From contig JAOMOG010000014.1 of assembly GCA_028353405.1 (NCBI GenBank), positions 1 through 39,111 on the forward strand: a stretch of 39,111 bases of DNA, read 5' to 3'. A program made the translations under genes and the position numbers. How positions within the stretch are numbered: the stretch's first letter is position 1; each line of letters opens with the position of its first letter. This document shows positions 1,299-29,713 of the stretch, one piece after another. This DNA comes from Candidatus Poseidoniaceae archaeon. GTDB lineage: Archaea > Thermoplasmatota > Poseidoniia > Poseidoniales > Poseidoniaceae. The notes below the pieces were generated by a model that was given only the letters and a program-made list of their open reading frames with translations, was not told the DNA's origin and did not search any database.

Positions 1299-4200
1299 TC
1301 AACCTCTTCTTCTAAGTGGACGAACATAACCAGAATCATCTGAGCGGCGTTCTTCCTTTGAAAGTATAGATGGGGCCGGTGGAGGGGCGTGTTGATCCAT
1401 GCCCAATAATCCTCCTTGCGACTCTACATGCTCTACATCATAGGTCTCTGCTGCCTTCTTTGCTTCCTCTTCGACTTCGGTAGGCTCTCTCATTACAAAC
1501 CAACCTAAAACCAATGCAGCTGTGATCAGGACGATGAATGTCAACAGGTCTGAACCTGCATCTGCTAGCCAATTCTTCCAATCTTGAACACTGAAATCAG
1601 ACAAAGATGGTGGCGCTTCTCCTTCAGGAATTACTTGGACTCCATAATCCATCTCATCGCACATGTCAAGTCCATTGCAGACCTGTAGGCGAATTTGTAC
1701 TAATCCTGCTTCTTGCCAACTTGCAGAGACTCTAGTTTTTGAACCTGTGAGAGGAGATACCCAATCGTCAGCAAAATTACCGTTTTCATCAGCATCTTCT
1801 GCCAAGTTCAAATCCCATTGAATCAATAGTCCGGATTCAATTCTCTCATCACGGTCACTAATCGAACCATCCAATACATTCAAATCTCTATAAATAATCA
1901 ATTCATCACTGTCTTGACCAGTAACATTTGCACTCAACGAATTTACATCCCCAACGAATACATCTTCTGGGATAAAAATTTCCTCAATATCTGGAGGTGT
2001 GGCGATAAGAACTGTAAATGACTGTCTTGAAACATCTCCTGTACCAAATGAATCCCTAACTGTAAGCGTAACGATATATTCCCCCGGAATTGAATACGAA
2101 TGCCAAGGAGATGGATCGTGGTTCAATGGTGTAGCATCACCGAAATCCCATGTATAACTAACGATTCCGTTCCATTCTGGAGATGCTGATTCAAGTGGAA
2201 TATACATCCCCTCATAACGACGGTCTCCATCTCTTGTTCCTTCCGAATCGAAGTACAGTAAAGTCCCAGGTGCCGCAATTGAATTACCATCTTCGTCAAA
2301 AGTTCTAGACCATGATTCGACCACAGTTCCTTCTGGCAAGGATGTTTCATCGGTAACAATTTCTCCTCCTAACCACGCATCTAGTATTTTCACACTAATG
2401 ATTGGAACTGGATTAGAGATTCTAATAACCATCGTCTTTGCAATACTCTCTTGCCCACTTTCATCGGTAACAATCAGTACTACACTGTTAACCCCTGGTT
2501 CAGTAAAAGAATGAGTGACTTGTGGCCTGTCACCGAATGTACCATCAGAGAAACTCCAATTAAATGTGAGATCACTTGAATCCCCAACTGTTCCATCAGG
2601 GTCAAAACTATTTCTTCCATCAAAGGTGTATGGGGTATCAACTTGCCCATCTGTTGCGCGGAAATCTATTGATTCAGAACCGGTTGATGCGGTTGTACGG
2701 ACAAGGAAATCTGATACTGGCATTTGATTAAGAACTATAACATAAAATTGTGCAGTAGATGAACTTCCATCGTCATCAGTTGCTGTAAGCTGGACTGTCA
2801 TTAATCCGGCGCTATCCCATCCGACTATAGGATTGGATTGGGCACTGCTGGTAGTTGTGAAATCATCAGTCCTATCTAGCGAACCACCATTGAGGTTAAC
2901 ACCCTCTGGGAAACTCCAGGCGTACGTCACTATTTGCCCATCATAATCTTTGAAGACATCAGGCATTACCATTGGCGTATAGGTGTATGTAGTCATATTC
3001 TCAGACCAAATCTGAACCGGAACGCGATTGTTTACGTGGACTAGAATTGATTTCATTCCGACATTAATACCATCGGAAACACTCAATGTTAGAGTGTATG
3101 TTTCATTAGTTGAATTCAATGCCCCCCATTCGTGGTGAGTGGAATACATCCCGACTCCCCCTTGGCTTGAACCATCACCCCAATCCCAGTCGAATTGGAG
3201 GTTCTCTGTCGGCACATTATCTGCGGTTCTTCCTGCAGAGAAGAGAATCTTTTGGTTCGTCAAAATTGAAATTTCCGTTTCAATGACAACATTGTTGACT
3301 GTGATAATAGGAATAGGTTGCGTGGTATCATTGACCACTATTTCATGAATATCCGTTTCCGACCAAGTTCCACCTACATCTTGAATTCTTAAAGTGGCAT
3401 TGAATGATCCGACCGAGGTATAAGATCTTACAGGGGATTTCAAACTTGAGCTAATATTATCTCCAAAATCCCAAGCATAGGCTGTTGGCGAGTCATAATA
3501 TGGCAATGAATTATTGTCCAAGGAAAGACCCCATGCGTCAAAACCATCTCCATTGAATTGGACATTTTCCCATGTTTGTGTTTGGTTTGGTGCAACACTA
3601 CCATTCGCTGTTGGACGCATATTTGCTAGAGCTTGTGGTGATGTGGTTTTGGTGTTTATCAATGCCCCAAGCATATCTCTCATCTCTAAATCAAATGTAT
3701 ATTGATCCGTCATTGCTGCAGTAAAGTAAACATCTCCTCCAACATCTACGCCGCCTCCAGCAGAAATTCTGTTTGTTAGTGAATCTATCTCATTTCCAAA
3801 TCCATCTTTGACCTTGACAGTAACGTCTAAATCTTCGAAGAAAGCGTTTGATAACACATTATAATTGATGTGAGCGGTGTCTGGTGAACCATCTCCATCT
3901 CTATCGGATAGAGTCGTTGTGTTCAGTCCAATAGTAGCAGGAGAGGTTATTCTTGCGGCTTCAACATCGATGGTCCCTTGTGGATAGGAAGACCCGCAAG
4001 ATGTGTAATCACAATCTGCAATTGTACTCGCATACCATGTTATTGCCCAGACTTCATCCGTCAAATTGCCAAATCCAGGGACAAGGCCAGTAGCAACATT
4101 ATTTTGGAAATTCAAATCGGTAACACTCCACAACCCATCGGCAGTAGATTTTGAAACTAACACTCCCTCAAATTGACTGACATCTGCTGTAAACCTCATT

Positions 4201-21259: not shown

Positions 21260-22462
21260 ATGAGTAACTACCTTGACCGAATTGGAGCGGGTTTCGTCCT
21301 AGCCAATCCAGAAGGTCTAGATTTTGATTACATGCCAGATGAATTAGTTGGTAGAGATGACATTCAGAAGCAATTAGCAAGTAAATTTTCAACCTTATCA
21401 CACCCTGATGGAGCTGGGCGTGCAGTTATTACTGGCCCAGTGGGCTGTGGTAAAACAGTTTTAGCAGGAACATTTTGTAGAGATATTCAGCGGCATTTGG
21501 CAAATAAAAGGCAAATAAAATCTGTTCAAATAAATTGCCGAAATGCATCTACCAGTATGCGAGTAGTCCAGCGAATCCTTCACAAATTAGACCCCGGCCA
21601 CCCTGATAGGGGTCTTTCAATGGGAGAATTATTGATTAGCTTACGGAAATTAGTCCGAAGAGATTCTGCACACTTAATCATTGTATTAGATGAAGTTGAC
21701 CATATGTTGAGACGTTCTGGTGACGACCTTCTTTACCAACTTCTAAGAATTGATGAGGATCAATCTGGAAAGGGTACATTATCTTTGATTATAATCAGCC
21801 AAGAGCAGGTTCTAGACCTATTAGAAACCGCTGTAATATCGAGAATGGGTAGTACAAATCATATCATGATCCCACCATATACAGTTGATGGAATTGAACA
21901 GATTGTCAACCAGCGAGCTGAATACTCCCTAGTTGGTGGAACATTTTCTCCTAATATCATCCGAATAATCGCAGAAAAGGCTGGCCCAAGTGGCGATGCT
22001 AGAAGAGGAATTGAACTACTTTCTGCAGCTGTAGAACGTTGTGAATTTAGACAGGATGCGCAAAGTGCAAGAGAGATATTGGTCGAGGATATTCATGAGC
22101 CAAACGATGGTGTAGCATTGAAAATCAGAGTCGAGTTAGAAGTTGTTGATGACCTTTCGGCTCACCAAATGTTGGTTCTCCTAGCATTGTGCAGGAGATT
22201 GAAAACTGAAGAGACTATGTCTATGGGTGATGTCGAATCTCTCTATGCTGTAGTCTGCGAAGAATATGAACAGAAACAAAAGAGTCACACAACGATTTGG
22301 AAATATATAAAGTACCTAGAACAGCAGCAGTTGATTGATTCTAAGGTCTCAAACGTTAGCGGTGGAAGAGGTAGGACAACTCATTTGAGTATGCCATATC
22401 ACCTGCCAGCAGACCTCTCAAGTCGCCTTGAATTGCTACTTCCTAAGCGACTACGAAGCTAA
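21260..22462 (+). CDS. cdc6: Orc1/Cdc6-type replication initiator ATPase
   Basis: 400 residues. AAA+ domain: LVGRDDIQKQL, Walker A GPVGCGKT at 59-66, Walker B VLDEVD at 142-147, sensor 1 LIIISQE, sensor 2 region GDARRGIELL. The C-terminal 110 residues form a winged helix (VSNVSGGRGRTTHLSM as the wing). It binds origin DNA and loads MCM. The known initiator often lies next to an origin, but the gap upstream (21169-21259) shows no origin-recognition-box array I can identify. No ribosome-binding site precedes the ATG, so the message may be weakly led or leaderless. Confidence 0.93.
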   Translation: MSNYLDRIGAGFVLANPEGLDFDYMPDELVGRDDIQKQLASKFSTLSHPDGAGRAVITGPVGCGKTVLAGTFCRDIQRHLANKRQIKSVQINCRNASTSMRVVQRILHKLDPGHPDRGLSMGELLISLRKLVRRDSAHLIIVLDEVDHMLRRSGDDLLYQLLRIDEDQSGKGTLSLIIISQEQVLDLLETAVISRMGSTNHIMIPPYTVDGIEQIVNQRAEYSLVGGTFSPNIIRIIAEKAGPSGDARRGIELLSAAVERCEFRQDAQSAREILVEDIHEPNDGVALKIRVELEVVDDLSAHQMLVLLALCRRLKTEETMSMGDVESLYAVVCEEYEQKQKSHTTIWKYIKYLEQQQLIDSKVSNVSGGRGRTTHLSMPYHLPADLSSRLELLLPKRLRS

Positions 22463-24796: not shown

Positions 24797-25096
24797 CTAA
24801 GGCAGAGTGAATAAGACATCATCGTCATGTCCATCTAATAATCTCAATTTTACAGCTGCGTCTATCCAAGCATGAGCATAATTTATTGCTCCAAAGGCCC
24901 TTACTCTATCTCCAATCTTCAAAAAATGATGAGCATCAGAGGAATAATCGTCCGCCATCCTCATCATTATCGCTAATTGTGCGGATTGATCACTTCCTTC
25001 TGGATGGAGGGGTGTTGCTTTTTTTCTTGCTCTTTTTGTAATATCAAGATAGTGCAATACCCTTTCTTCTGTTAGTTCAATAAGTTCATCACTCAT
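24797..25096 (-). CDS. DUF357 family protein
   Basis: 99 residues, all helical. The family core is intact: MMRMADDYSSDAHHFL, KIGDRVRAFGAINYAHAWIDAAVKLRLLD, with the DA.HF, GD..RAF and YAH.WIDA positions. DUF357 is an archaeal family of unknown function. Its ATG overlaps the stop of the propeller gene (ATGA, 25093-25096), so it is the last gene of the AAA+/propeller/DUF357 operon and is likely translated with it. Confidence 0.85.
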   Translation of the reverse strand: MSDELIELTEERVLHYLDITKRARKKATPLHPEGSDQSAQLAIMMRMADDYSSDAHHFLKIGDRVRAFGAINYAHAWIDAAVKLRLLDGHDDDVLFTLP

Positions 25097-26139
25097 TCCC
25101 CACCCTCCTTTTGCCTTTGTAATAGACGGCGGACATCTTCTTTACGTCCTAGAGCACCATACAATTCCACTGCTATCGATAATTTCCCTTCATCTTCTGC
25201 AGTTTGAGCTCGGATGAATAAGTCCTTTCTTTCATCCCAATTTCTTGCCATTGCAGCCTCTGCTGCAGCCTCAAATCGTCCTTTTCGTTCAGACTGTGCT
25301 AGATGTGGTGCAGACCATTTACGAATTAACCCTGAACGTGTTGCTGTGATCATTGAATCTGGTGTAAGACCAACGAGTAAGTCTCCTAAGTCCATAGACT
25401 CACCAAGGGTTTCAACATCTTCTTCCAATGTCCTCGATATGTGATAGAGACGCCCTTCAATACCCAATACCCACCAGCCATCAGCACTGTTTATCCCTTC
25501 CATGGCTTCAATCGAGTCTTGTTCAAGTCGGATCAAATCATCCCATCCGAATGGATGAGGGATACCTTGCCACAAACTACCATCACTAGATTGTAAAATG
25601 ATTCTGCCATTTACTAATTCGCTTGACCAACTCCAAATTCTGTCCTCAAGACACCTTTTCTTGTCAGAACCGGTCAATCTACCGCACCAGATCCTTCCAT
25701 CACTTGCCTGCCACATCAAATGCTCTCTATCCAGCCAGCCAAGTAATCTCCTGACCATTCCACTGTCCATACGACGAATTCCTCTCCCCTCCTGTGAGAA
25801 AAGATGCATGTTTCCATCTCTACCAGATAAGACCCAACCACCACCAGGTCTCGCTTTTATTCCAGTAAAGCCTCCAGGGCTACTTCTTCCTTCGTGGAGT
25901 AATGAACCATCCCTCGTCGACATAACATAGAATCCATGTGCTGCTAATACTCCAAGAAGACCTTGTCCACTATCAATTGCATGTACTTTGAATGGCATGT
26001 CAACAGACCATCTTTCACTGCCATCATGTTCATAGAAAGATAAATTCAAGCCGCTACTAACAACTAATCCACCTTCGCTTGCTGCTATGGTCGAAATAAT
26101 GCTCGGTGTTTGTTTGGACCAAGTGATTTGCCAAGCCAT
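25093..26139 (-). CDS. PQQ/WD-like beta-propeller protein with helical tail
   Basis: 348 residues. Seven or so four-stranded blades, each with the pattern of a strand, a small-residue turn and a Trp or DG motif (SGRDGNMHLFS, SDGRIWCGRL, SSDGSLWQG, WVLGIEGRLYHIS). After about residue 285 comes a helical tail with TPR-like character (AAAEAAMARNWDERKD, AQTAEDEGKLSIAVELYGALG). No signal peptide, so it is cytoplasmic, most likely a binding scaffold. Its start overlaps the stop of the AAA+ gene by one base and its end overlaps DUF357, showing tight coupling. Confidence 0.75.
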   Translation of the reverse strand: MAWQITWSKQTPSIISTIAASEGGLVVSSGLNLSFYEHDGSERWSVDMPFKVHAIDSGQGLLGVLAAHGFYVMSTRDGSLLHEGRSSPGGFTGIKARPGGGWVLSGRDGNMHLFSQEGRGIRRMDSGMVRRLLGWLDREHLMWQASDGRIWCGRLTGSDKKRCLEDRIWSWSSELVNGRIILQSSDGSLWQGIPHPFGWDDLIRLEQDSIEAMEGINSADGWWVLGIEGRLYHISRTLEEDVETLGESMDLGDLLVGLTPDSMITATRSGLIRKWSAPHLAQSERKGRFEAAAEAAMARNWDERKDLFIRAQTAEDEGKLSIAVELYGALGRKEDVRRLLQRQKEGGE

Positions 26140-28211
26140 TAGAACTCACCCCCCATCATATTCCATGCAGTCAATTGGGCTCTTGCTGATTGAGTTAATG
26201 TGAACAGTCGACTTTTTCCAACTTTACGAGCATTTAGAACTCCGCCCTTATGTAAGCGATTACTTATTTGTGACAGTCTAGCCCTTTTTATGTTTAATTC
26301 TTGTAATAATTCTTGATCTGATGGAGAATATTTTCTTTCATTTGCTGTTGCAACAACAACTGCCTCATGAGGTGATAAATTAGATAATACGCTCGTGTTT
26401 AATGGGTGATCGATTCTTTCTCCCTCTTTTGGTTTCCTCAAGCTTGTAAGTGCATCTATCAATCTCCTTCGATCGATTGTGCCATCTTGCTTTTGCGGTG
26501 CTAGCAAAGCGGTTTGAAGTGCATTGACTAGATTTGAGAATGTTCTCATATCGCCTTTAGAAACAAATTCAGAATCTAATTCCAAGTCTTCCGTACCTTG
26601 GTAACTAGTTTCGGCTTCTATCGGAGTACCTACGTCGTCATCCATGTAACCTGTTTCGTCATGTATCATCGCAGTACCATCTCCTTCCAATTCCTCATCA
26701 CTTGATTCATCGATTAGATTAGAATCTTTGGCCACCCACAATTCAGCCCCTTTTACAGATTCTGATTGTTCATAATCATCCGGGTTTTCAGGAGATTTGT
26801 CAGGTGCTTCTCTCATTCTTCCGACCAATGAGCCAAACATTCCTGCCATTTCCACTGGTATTGGCTTAGTTGTTTCATTATTGATCTCATCACTGTCATA
26901 AACATCAAATGGTGTTTTCTTTAGAGGAGCGTCGTTATCCTTTGAACTGCCTAAATCATCTAAATCTAAATCAAATCCAGAAAGTGAGCCACCTGGGCCA
27001 TGTATTTCTTGGAAATTATCATCTTGGGTTGTTTCGGAGCTCAGTTCATCGTTTTGTTGTCTAGATTGCCAAGGGGTAGAAGCATCCATGGTCTCTACAC
27101 TGCTATCTTCTGAAGAATCTATTAATTTTTCAACCGATTCAACGTATTCATCTCCTAGTTCATCCATTAATCCGCCAAAAATATCAGTTTGACCATTATC
27201 TGCCGTAGAAGCGTCTAATTTGGCATCATTGTTATTTTCTTCAATACTTGCCTCTGGAACCAAATCATTGGTAGATAGGTCATGCTTAGAGGTGAAAATA
27301 CCTGTTGTAGATGCTTCTGGTTGTTGTGTAGGCAATATCGCACTCGTATCGAATCCCTTTCTGTCATGTGAAATGTGATTAATGTTATTCTGAGCACCTT
27401 GGTTTTGAGCCATACGGTTGTTGTCTACAGCATCCCTCATCACCCTAATAATAGAGGCAGGAAGGCCGTCAGTTATGGCCAATAGGTGCTCAGCATCCTC
27501 TTTTGGAAATGCGTACTGAGTGCTACAAGCCGAACTTATTCTCAGATTAACAAGCTCTTGAATCGACTCAACACTTAGCGGATTCAGCGTGTTTACCATG
27601 TCAAACCTCTTCAATACCGCTTCTGGTAAATGCGCTTTTTGTTTATGATCTAACACCACTACCATCAAAACCTGTAACCGTTCAATTACTGGTAAAGTAT
27701 CTCTCAGTGCCACATTTAGAACTGCAGAATCAACCGTAGGAACATCGATTACCACCAATGGCAGTTTACCAGTGAAAGATTTACTCGTTTCAACCATTTC
27801 AGAAACGATCGCCGTATAGTGCGAAGGAATATTTGGGCCAACTAACTCCAAATATAATGATTCCAGCAAACTTTTAGCGGGAGCAGATGCATGAATATGG
27901 TCTAAGTGTAGCGAAAGTGGTGCCTCCTTTCCTAAACACCTCAACAATGAAGTACGCCCAGAACCGACACTACCAACCATCAAAATACGTCTAGTTGAGC
28001 AGAAATGGATGTGTTGAGCTAGGCTGTCAAATACCTCATTACGACCCACTAAGAGGCTTTTTTGGCCTTCCTCTAGGGGTGATGTAGAAAATGGGTTCTG
28101 GAATAATAGAGGAAGTTCAATCTCTTTACCTTCTATCCGCATACTCCGAGCAATTCGAAGTGGGTATTTATTGTTTGACCTAATCAATAGGTCCCGCAGA
28201 CGTGTTAGCAC
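26139..28211 (-). CDS. Degenerate AAA+ / winged-helix protein with acidic linker
   Basis: 690 residues in three parts. Residues about 50-270 are an AAA+ fold related to Orc1/Cdc6-type ATPases: VGRNEVFDSL, a P-loop at 80-87 reading GSVGSGRT (Lys replaced by Arg), and a Walker B VVIDV at 153-157 with the catalytic Glu missing. About 280-560 is a very acidic, low-complexity linker (DELGDEYVESVEK, DLDLDDLGSSKD). About 585-690 is a winged helix-turn-helix (LLQELNIKRARLSQISNRLHKGG). It is probably a DNA-binding protein with weak or no ATPase activity. The GTG start has GGTGAT upstream; ATG 28142 is an alternative. Confidence 0.76.
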   Translation of the reverse strand: MLTRLRDLLIRSNNKYPLRIARSMRIEGKEIELPLLFQNPFSTSPLEEGQKSLLVGRNEVFDSLAQHIHFCSTRRILMVGSVGSGRTSLLRCLGKEAPLSLHLDHIHASAPAKSLLESLYLELVGPNIPSHYTAIVSEMVETSKSFTGKLPLVVIDVPTVDSAVLNVALRDTLPVIERLQVLMVVVLDHKQKAHLPEAVLKRFDMVNTLNPLSVESIQELVNLRISSACSTQYAFPKEDAEHLLAITDGLPASIIRVMRDAVDNNRMAQNQGAQNNINHISHDRKGFDTSAILPTQQPEASTTGIFTSKHDLSTNDLVPEASIEENNNDAKLDASTADNGQTDIFGGLMDELGDEYVESVEKLIDSSEDSSVETMDASTPWQSRQQNDELSSETTQDDNFQEIHGPGGSLSGFDLDLDDLGSSKDNDAPLKKTPFDVYDSDEINNETTKPIPVEMAGMFGSLVGRMREAPDKSPENPDDYEQSESVKGAELWVAKDSNLIDESSDEELEGDGTAMIHDETGYMDDDVGTPIEAETSYQGTEDLELDSEFVSKGDMRTFSNLVNALQTALLAPQKQDGTIDRRRLIDALTSLRKPKEGERIDHPLNTSVLSNLSPHEAVVVATANERKYSPSDQELLQELNIKRARLSQISNRLHKGGVLNARKVGKSRLFTLTQSARAQLTAWNMMGGEF

Positions 28212-28258
28212 ATGTTAATCAAATCACCATAGCACTAATTTTGGATGAAAAAAGCCTG

Positions 28259-28315
28259 ATTAACGCAACATTAACGCATAGTTAACGCGTTAGGTGAAGC
28301 GTTAAACGCGTTAAT
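28259..28315. repeat. TTAACGC iteron array in the divergent gap
   Basis: Three direct copies of RTTAACGC begin at 28259, 28270 and 28281, exactly 11 bases apart, followed by inverted copies GCGTTA(A) at 28287 (degenerate), 28299 and 28308. Two of these meet as palindromes TAACGCGTTA (28283-28292) and AACGCGTT (28305-28312). The array sits 48 bases from the AAA+ start and 100 from the HMG-CoA reductase start. The helical spacing is that of a protein-binding operator or origin iteron. No other long repeat is seen in 28212-28414; a hairpin ATCAAG/CTTGAT lies at 28360-28377. Confidence 0.8.
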
Positions 28316-28359
28316 GAATGGCAGAACCGAGAAATACGAAAACAACACATCTAGGCCTA

Positions 28360-28377
28360 ATCAAGCGATGTCTTGAT
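28360..28377 (+). promoter_or_regulatory. Small inverted repeat in the hmgA leader
   Basis: ATCAAG-CGATGT-CTTGAT is a perfect 6-bp inverted repeat with a 6-base loop, 37 bases before the HMG-CoA reductase start. It could be an operator half-site pair or a leader hairpin; nothing in the sequence decides between them. Confidence 0.3.
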
Positions 28378-28414
28378 GTGATTGAGATTAGTGGCTAAGC
28401 ACAGAGGAAGCAAT

Positions 28415-29713
28415 ATGTCTGTTGAAAATAGTCGCCTCAGTGGTTTTTTCCGCCTATCTGTAGCCGAACGTAGGCAAATCGTTGCCGAAGCGGCAAACCT
28501 AAGCCAAGAGCAAACCGATGCACTGGCAGCCCATGGAGAGTTATCTGAAGATGCTGCTAACAATATGATCGAGAATGTGATTGGAACTATGTCCTTGCCC
28601 GTTGGAGTGGCAACAAACTTTGTTATCGATGGAAAACACTACCTAATACCATTCTGTTTGGAGGAGTCAAGTGTTGTTGCTGCAGCATCCAATATGGCTA
28701 AGCGTTGCCTTTCTAGAGGTGGTTTCCGCACAAATAATGACGGCCCAATGATGATTGGGCAATTACAGATCCTAGATTTAACTGATATTCCATCTGCGAT
28801 TTCAATGATTGAAGATTCCAAGGATCAATTAATGAAAATATGTAACGACAGGCCAAGTACGATGATCAAACTAGGTGGTGGATGTAAAGAAATCGAATTG
28901 CGAGTGATTGAAAGTCTATCTGGACCAATGCTAATATTACACATTTTAGTCGATACAAGGGATGCTATGGGCGCAAATGCAGTCAATACAATGGCCGAAC
29001 TTATTGCCCCAGAAGTTGAAAGGCTAACCGGTGGAAGAGTCCACTTGAAGATACTATCCAACCTTGCAGCACATCGTTTAGCAAGAGTTGACGCTACCTT
29101 TACTGCTGAAGAGTTATCGGATGATGGAACTCGAGAAAATGGATTACAGATCATTACAGGTATATTGGAAGCATATCATTTCGCCATTGCAGACCCATTT
29201 AGGGCCGTCACACACAACAAAGGAGTGATGAATGCTATCAGTAGCGTTTCTGTAGCCTGTGGGCAGGATTGGAGAGCAATAGAAGCAGGATGCCATGCTT
29301 GGGCATCACATCAAGCAGGAATATACTCATCGATGACACAATGGGTACAGGACGATAATGGCGACCTTGTGGGCTCTATTGAGACTCCAATGGCCGTAGG
29401 AATTGTAGGGGGAGCTAGTAAGGTGCACCCTGTTGCCAGGGCTAATTTGGCTATTCTCGGAGTCGATTCCGCTCAAGAATTAGCTGGCGTCATCGCAGCA
29501 TCTGGATTGGCACAGAATCTAGGAGCTCTAAGAGCACTATCAACTAGCGGAATTCAGGCTGGTCATATGAAACTACATTCTCGCAATATGGCGGTTAGTG
29601 CAGGCGCTTCAGATGATGAAGTTGGAATCATAGCACAGAGATTACAGGCTTTCAAAGGTCCAAAAACTCAAACTAAAGTACAAGAGTTACTCGAGCAACT
29701 AAGAAATGAATAA
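28415..29713 (+). CDS. mvaA: HMG-CoA reductase, class II (bacterial-type)
   Basis: 432 residues. HMG-CoA reductase makes mevalonate, the entry to archaeal isoprenoid lipids. Class II features: LSGFFRLSVAERRQIVAEA at the N-terminus, ENVIGTMSLPVGVATNF (53-69), LEESSVVAAAS (catalytic Glu), DAMGAN, NKGVMNAI (catalytic Lys) and GHMKLHSRNMA (catalytic His). No membrane helices are present, unlike class I. AGAGGA lies six bases before ATG 28415, which decides the start over the upstream TTG. It ends two bases from the convergent scpB and faces the AAA+ gene across the iteron array. Confidence 0.93.
   Translation: MSVENSRLSGFFRLSVAERRQIVAEAANLSQEQTDALAAHGELSEDAANNMIENVIGTMSLPVGVATNFVIDGKHYLIPFCLEESSVVAAASNMAKRCLSRGGFRTNNDGPMMIGQLQILDLTDIPSAISMIEDSKDQLMKICNDRPSTMIKLGGGCKEIELRVIESLSGPMLILHILVDTRDAMGANAVNTMAELIAPEVERLTGGRVHLKILSNLAAHRLARVDATFTAEELSDDGTRENGLQIITGILEAYHFAIADPFRAVTHNKGVMNAISSVSVACGQDWRAIEAGCHAWASHQAGIYSSMTQWVQDDNGDLVGSIETPMAVGIVGGASKVHPVARANLAILGVDSAQELAGVIAASGLAQNLGALRALSTSGIQAGHMKLHSRNMAVSAGASDDEVGIIAQRLQAFKGPKTQTKVQELLEQLRNE

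Follow-up and report, generated by a model that had tools for sequence, protein, structure and literature searches.

A six-site TTAACG array conserved between the divergent AAA+/winged-helix and HMG-CoA reductase genes of Ca. Poseidoniales

The window analysed here is a stretch of 39,111 nucleotides from a Candidatus Poseidoniaceae archaeon, and it carries a regular set of short repeats in the gap between two divergent genes, one encoding an AAA+ protein with a winged helix and the other encoding HMG-CoA reductase (HMGR). The question raised by this locus is what purpose these repeats serve. A first-pass annotation had considered an operator for the AAA+ gene that couples it to mevalonate and lipid synthesis or, alternatively, an origin cluster bound by a replication initiator. 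Representatives of this array are found in Marine Group II archaea, an uncultured group with very high abundance in surface oceans. Literature searches retrieved no earlier report of the array motif and no description of the control of HMGR in archaea.

The array and its immediate surroundings

The three direct RTTAACGC copies listed in the first-pass annotation are indeed present at positions 28259, 28270 and 28281, with a step of exactly 11 bp. They belong to a core array of six TTAACG half-sites (28260 to 28314, forward strand) with the offsets 0>, 11>, 22>, 28<, 40< and 49<, wherein YTAACG occurs at 28260, 28271 and 28282 and the inverted form CGTTAR occurs at 28288, 28300 and 28309. A six-site template scores 35 of 36 at position 28260, whereas no other place in the window exceeds 22 and 40 Markov simulations of 39 kb reach 23 at most. 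The array is real, is well beyond chance, and exceeds the first description in both size and regularity.

The centre of the array is formed by an overlapping inverted pair, TTAACGCGTTAG (28282 to 28293), which is the palindromic TTAACGCGTTAA in many relatives. The TAACGCGTTA of this pair is invariant in all 32 of the 32 aligned members of the genus. Two ACGCGT palindromes had been described, and both exist in the window (28285-28290 and 28306-28311), but the second is often ACCCGT in relatives and only the first is general. There is also a secondary pair of half-sites, spaced 10 bp apart, at 28204 to 28218 on the reverse strand, between the array and the core promoter of the AAA+ gene. This pair lies outside the interval originally annotated, reads GATTAACATGTGCTAAC towards the AAA+ gene, and keeps the same aligned position upstream of the AAA+ start in every genome of the window's family (f1). 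In the second family (f2), TCACGC/GCGTGA-type copies close to the AAA+ start, with a spacing of 11 bp, represent a diverged second site pair (for example GCGTGAGAATGCGTGAATATTA in locus L060).

The AAA+ gene had been placed at 26139-28211. Its divergent orientation and its AAA+/winged-helix product stand, but the gene very probably starts with the ATG at 28142 instead of the GTG at 28211, since the alignment with homologues begins at the residue of the former. With this conserved ATG, the gene (26139 to 28142, reverse strand) encodes a protein of 667 amino acids, and the gap extends from 28143 to 28414 (272 bp). On the other side of the gap is the HMGR gene (28415 to 29713, forward strand; PF00368, E = 8.4e-104). 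The end of the AAA+ gene is overlapped by the gene for a 348-amino-acid protein (25093 to 26139, reverse strand), for which no Pfam family was found and which is probably co-transcribed with the AAA+ gene. This 348-amino-acid protein is 62-70% identical in most of the genus and is a possible partner of the AAA+ protein.

A putative core promoter for the AAA+ gene (AGGTCAAACAATAAATACCC, 28162 to 28181, reverse strand) includes a TATA-like stretch approximately 23-31 bp before the start codon, and it is conserved in f1 as G(G/C)T(C/G)AAACATCAAATACC. Because the Poseidoniales are uncultured, transcription starts have to be inferred, and the short distance between the TATA-like stretch and the start codon suggests a leaderless mRNA. 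No Rfam family of structured RNAs was detected, the best match (E = 0.29) being below threshold and outside the array.

Occurrence within the order

There are 76 stretches that match the pattern TTAACGCNNNNYTAACGCGTTA among 84,980 prokaryote genomes (GTDB), and 73 of these 76 are contigs of Ca. Poseidoniales (Marine Group II). HMGR adjoins the array in 71 of the pattern matches, and the contigs of L159 and L179 end at the array. The bacterial matches (L182, L195 and L201) include two or three half-sites each and are not accompanied by HMGR, and they were rejected as chance occurrences. The filters used for this large scan were stricter, which leaves room for weak single sites elsewhere.

A sequence profile built from 32 genomes was searched in 60 relatives, which are mostly fragmented MAGs and are not independent samples, and it located the array in 56 of the 60, with one locus per genome. 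The E-values range from 1e-14 to 1e-19 in the genus and are mostly 1e-5 to 1e-8 in the other family, with values of about 1e-3 in the two weakest cases. Three of the unmatched genomes (G010, G035 and G051) are also without detectable HMGR and AAA+ genes, and the contig of the fourth (G009) stops just short of the array; these four cases may be assembly gaps.

When a second locus was sought in the 60 relatives, the profile gave only weak off-locus matches (E = 0.06-0.34). A regulon was considered and rejected, as neither exact patterns nor the profile yield a second locus of comparable strength. The exact off-locus matches (G030:C5, G037:C22 and G007:C147) lie within coding frames or at their ends and are unaccompanied by other half-sites. 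The array is absent from seven HMGR upstream regions outside the Poseidoniales, including one from the same class, and no viral carriage of the array was found in IMG/VR.

Relatives with the same gene order have the array in the same gap, and the offsets of its half-sites are rigid across genera. The six offsets seen in the window are maintained in its genus and are found again in two further genera of the family, while representatives from f2 mostly exhibit the offsets 0>, 11>, 28<, 39< and 53>, plus one extra site near -77. Among 32 genomes of the genus, column conservation is 96% in the core, 64% in the spacers and 47% in the flanks. In genus g2, the mixed architecture is replaced by a tandem TTAACGT variant that has an 11-bp step and mostly direct copies (L066:8452-8517, L067:7440-7505). 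In the complete 2.06-Mb chromosome G074, the array upstream of HMGR (L239) is interrupted by a run of N, and this copy is partly unreadable.

The array is always found in the gap between the divergent AAA+/winged-helix and HMGR genes, and it lies upstream of HMGR in every relative with sequence there. These two genes are adjacent and divergent in 54 of the 54 loci that have both on the contig. The widely conserved order of genes is eIF2-gamma, the 348-amino-acid protein, the AAA+ protein, the gap, HMGR, ScpB, ScpA and SMC, and the AAA+/HMGR pair is intact in five loci from genera g4 and g8 that are without ScpB, ScpA and SMC alongside.

A candidate operator of the AAA+ gene

Homologues of the AAA+ protein, which is the probable array-binding protein, are found in 57 of the 60 relatives. 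In a phylum-wide sample, full-length matches occur in Poseidoniales only, and two other genomes give weak partial matches; the homologues and the array have the same taxonomic range. The protein consists of an ORC/Cdc6-like AAA+ module, a linker and a C-terminal winged helix. Its predicted structure is confident for the AAA+ module and for the winged helix (residues 583-662, pLDDT about 90-96), and the linker is disordered. The best match among solved structures in a Foldseek search is 2qby_B, which is Cdc6/Orc1 on origin DNA (E = 5.6e-7). The Cdc6_C and Cdc6 lid profiles give no match, and the window's protein matches AAA_16 only, below the cutoff. Over 42 members, the leading Pfam families are AAA_22, AAA_16 and nSTAND1, with weak ORC-CDC6-like matches in 13. 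A weak link between the winged helix and ArsR-type regulators was obtained when PDB sequences were searched with a profile.

Conservation is highest in the winged helix (63%), followed by the AAA+ module (52%) and the linker (27%), and the winged helix includes an RLSQ-type helix that is invariant between families. In the Walker A motif (GxxGSGRTS), arginine replaces lysine in 41 of 42 members. Residue D133 of Walker B is followed mostly by Y, A or T, and there is no conserved glutamate. ATP hydrolysis is doubtful because of these departures in both motifs.

The distance between the array and the AAA+ gene, counted from the NPF codon of that gene, is 148-149 bp in 23 genomes of f1 and 158-160 bp in six others including the window, and these two distances differ by one helical turn. 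In f2, the distance is 182-187 bp among 15 well-scored genomes. In contrast, the distance between the array and HMGR is loose (120-170 and 130-271 bp) and exhibits no helical quantisation. The fixed spacing on one side and the variable spacing on the other indicate that the array is locked to the AAA+ promoter.

We consider it probable, although well short of certain, that the array is a multi-site operator or enhancer of the divergent AAA+ promoter and that it is most likely bound by the product of that same gene. The operator function proposed in the first-pass annotation is supported indirectly, by the inseparability of array and gene, by a distance that is fixed modulo a helical turn, and by the conserved winged helix. 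The winged helix would read TTAACG, and the degenerate ORC-like AAA+ module would let several copies of the protein assemble cooperatively side by side. The assembled complex would then contact the core promoter as well as the secondary sites, and would set the level at which the AAA+ gene and the next gene downstream are transcribed. Because the sites are located upstream of the TATA-like element, activation or architectural control is more plausible than simple blocking. Across the gap, the HMGR promoter would probably be influenced as well, but the influence would be loose, given the unconstrained spacing between this promoter and the array. Coupling to mevalonate synthesis, as suggested earlier, has the invariant adjacency of HMGR as its sole basis and the loose spacing against it; co-control of HMGR by the array is a possibility.

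An order-wide conserved cis-element with one candidate protein constitutes a directly testable regulator, and it would exemplify how an ORC-like AAA+ protein whose ATP site is degenerate can serve as a dedicated gene regulator. A more elaborate scenario, which we put forward tentatively and regard as rather doubtful, is that an ORC/Cdc6-like AAA+ protein lost its ATP-site residues and was recruited as a dedicated transcription regulator at the base of the Ca. Poseidoniales, assembling on the six-site array at a single chromosomal address and controlling itself and HMGR jointly. If true, this protein would be a lineage-specific regulator of lipid synthesis, as HMGR catalyses the committed step of archaeal lipid synthesis.

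Other targets, other binding proteins and the replication origin

The order-wide divergent adjacency to HMGR would also fit HMGR as the main target. It is possible, but unlikely, that the array is mainly an operator for HMGR and the mevalonate pathway, read by the AAA+ protein or by some other lipid-responsive regulator, wherein the fixed distance to the AAA+ gene would result from the regulator controlling itself, as CrtR-type systems do. The array is bordered by HMGR in all cases, the AAA+/HMGR pair persists where other neighbours differ, and there is a precedent in CrtR from Corynebacterium, a MarR-type protein that is encoded divergently to an isoprenoid operon and represses both this operon and itself (PMC7432914, PMC5401885). 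CrtR offers the nearest logic on record, since there, too, a winged-helix protein and an isoprenoid-synthesis gene are encoded divergently and the sites lie in the intergenic region between them (PMC7432914, PMC5401885). However, the DNA-binding protein examined here bears an ORC-like AAA+ module, the host is an archaeon, and a rigid six-site operator is tied to the regulator's own promoter, with HMGR control only possible. In addition, the variable distance to HMGR (120 to 271 bp, with no helical quantisation) and the occurrence of the array at no other locus, mevalonate genes included, argue against HMGR as the main target. Adjacency and co-occurrence would also fit another dedicated DNA-binding protein as well as they fit the AAA+ protein. 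Archaeal regulators can be unlinked to their targets, and the AAA+ and HMGR genes could merely neighbour a site for a different, unlinked transcription factor that is dedicated to one locus. This arrangement is quite improbable, as a factor with a single target is usually encoded next to it, and here the neighbouring gene already specifies a winged helix with the taxonomic range of the array. There is even less reason to expect a centromere-like or chromosome-organising site that acts with the nearby SMC-ScpA-ScpB genes, which we judge very improbable. Partition sites of the ParR/parC type consist of 11-bp direct repeats and additionally control the partition promoter, and the array resembles them in that helically phased direct repeats of 11 bp lie next to a promoter. 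The array is present at a single locus per chromosome, and SMC, ScpA and ScpB are encoded close by in many genomes. However, the array mixes direct and inverted sites and is chromosomal and conserved over the whole order, the five loci from g4 and g8 keep it without SMC genes alongside, the ATP site of the AAA+ module is degenerate, and the lock to the AAA+ promoter would be left unexplained. No ParA/ParM-type gene was recognised among the flanking genes in a Pfam scan.

The least probable function, rejected on the skew and ORB evidence, is that of a replication origin, wherein the array would be a cluster of initiator-binding sites for either the ORC-like AAA+ protein or Orc1/Cdc6, as the first-pass annotation had also entertained. 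The best structural match of the AAA+ module is Cdc6/Orc1 bound to origin DNA (2qby), an AAA+ module followed by a winged helix, and repeated sites next to the encoding gene, are shared with Orc1/Cdc6 and its ORB sites, and a true cdc6 gene is located at 21260-22462 and is nearby in 43 related loci. However, GC skew corrected for gene orientation exhibits no switch at the array in either of two genomes (t = -1.7 and 0.5 in G020, 1.4 and -0.7 in G054; absolute t at most 1.7), whereas a switch is evident at canonical ORB pairs situated elsewhere (t = -5.4 to -6.7 in G019, -2.7 to -3.0 in G044). The AAA+ protein also differs from Orc1/Cdc6 in its degenerate Walker motifs, including the near-universal arginine of Walker A, and in its long disordered linker. 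There are no ORB motifs in the gap and only a single CCANNGGAAAC in the window, at position 3070, and the AT content of the gap (0.596, versus 0.586 for the window) gives no sign of an AT-rich unwinding element.

The inverted ORB-type pairs (TCCANNGGAAACAANGGGG), whose members are about 145 bp apart, match the archaeal ORB consensus TTCCAGTGGAAAC...GGGG (PMC4153887). These pairs are found on contigs other than that of the array in G003, G019 and G044, and they occur at L211:8328-8510, L212:8407-8590, L210:8588-8770 and G074:C1:203746-203929 (165 bp start to start in G074). On the complete chromosome G074, the ORB pair at 203.7-203.9 kb and HMGR at 693 kb are approximately 490 kb apart. The ORB pair, present in four Poseidoniales genomes of two families, is likely the replication origin of the order, and the same data set the array apart from this likely true origin. 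The 15-17 kb loci that surround the ORB pairs revealed no cdc6 gene. The genuine Orc1/Cdc6 gene (21260-22462 in the window) stays near the AAA+/HMGR locus while the ORB pair is distant, and the initiator gene and the origin are uncoupled. In L211, the ORB pair adjoins a metallo-beta-lactamase/CPSF-like gene.
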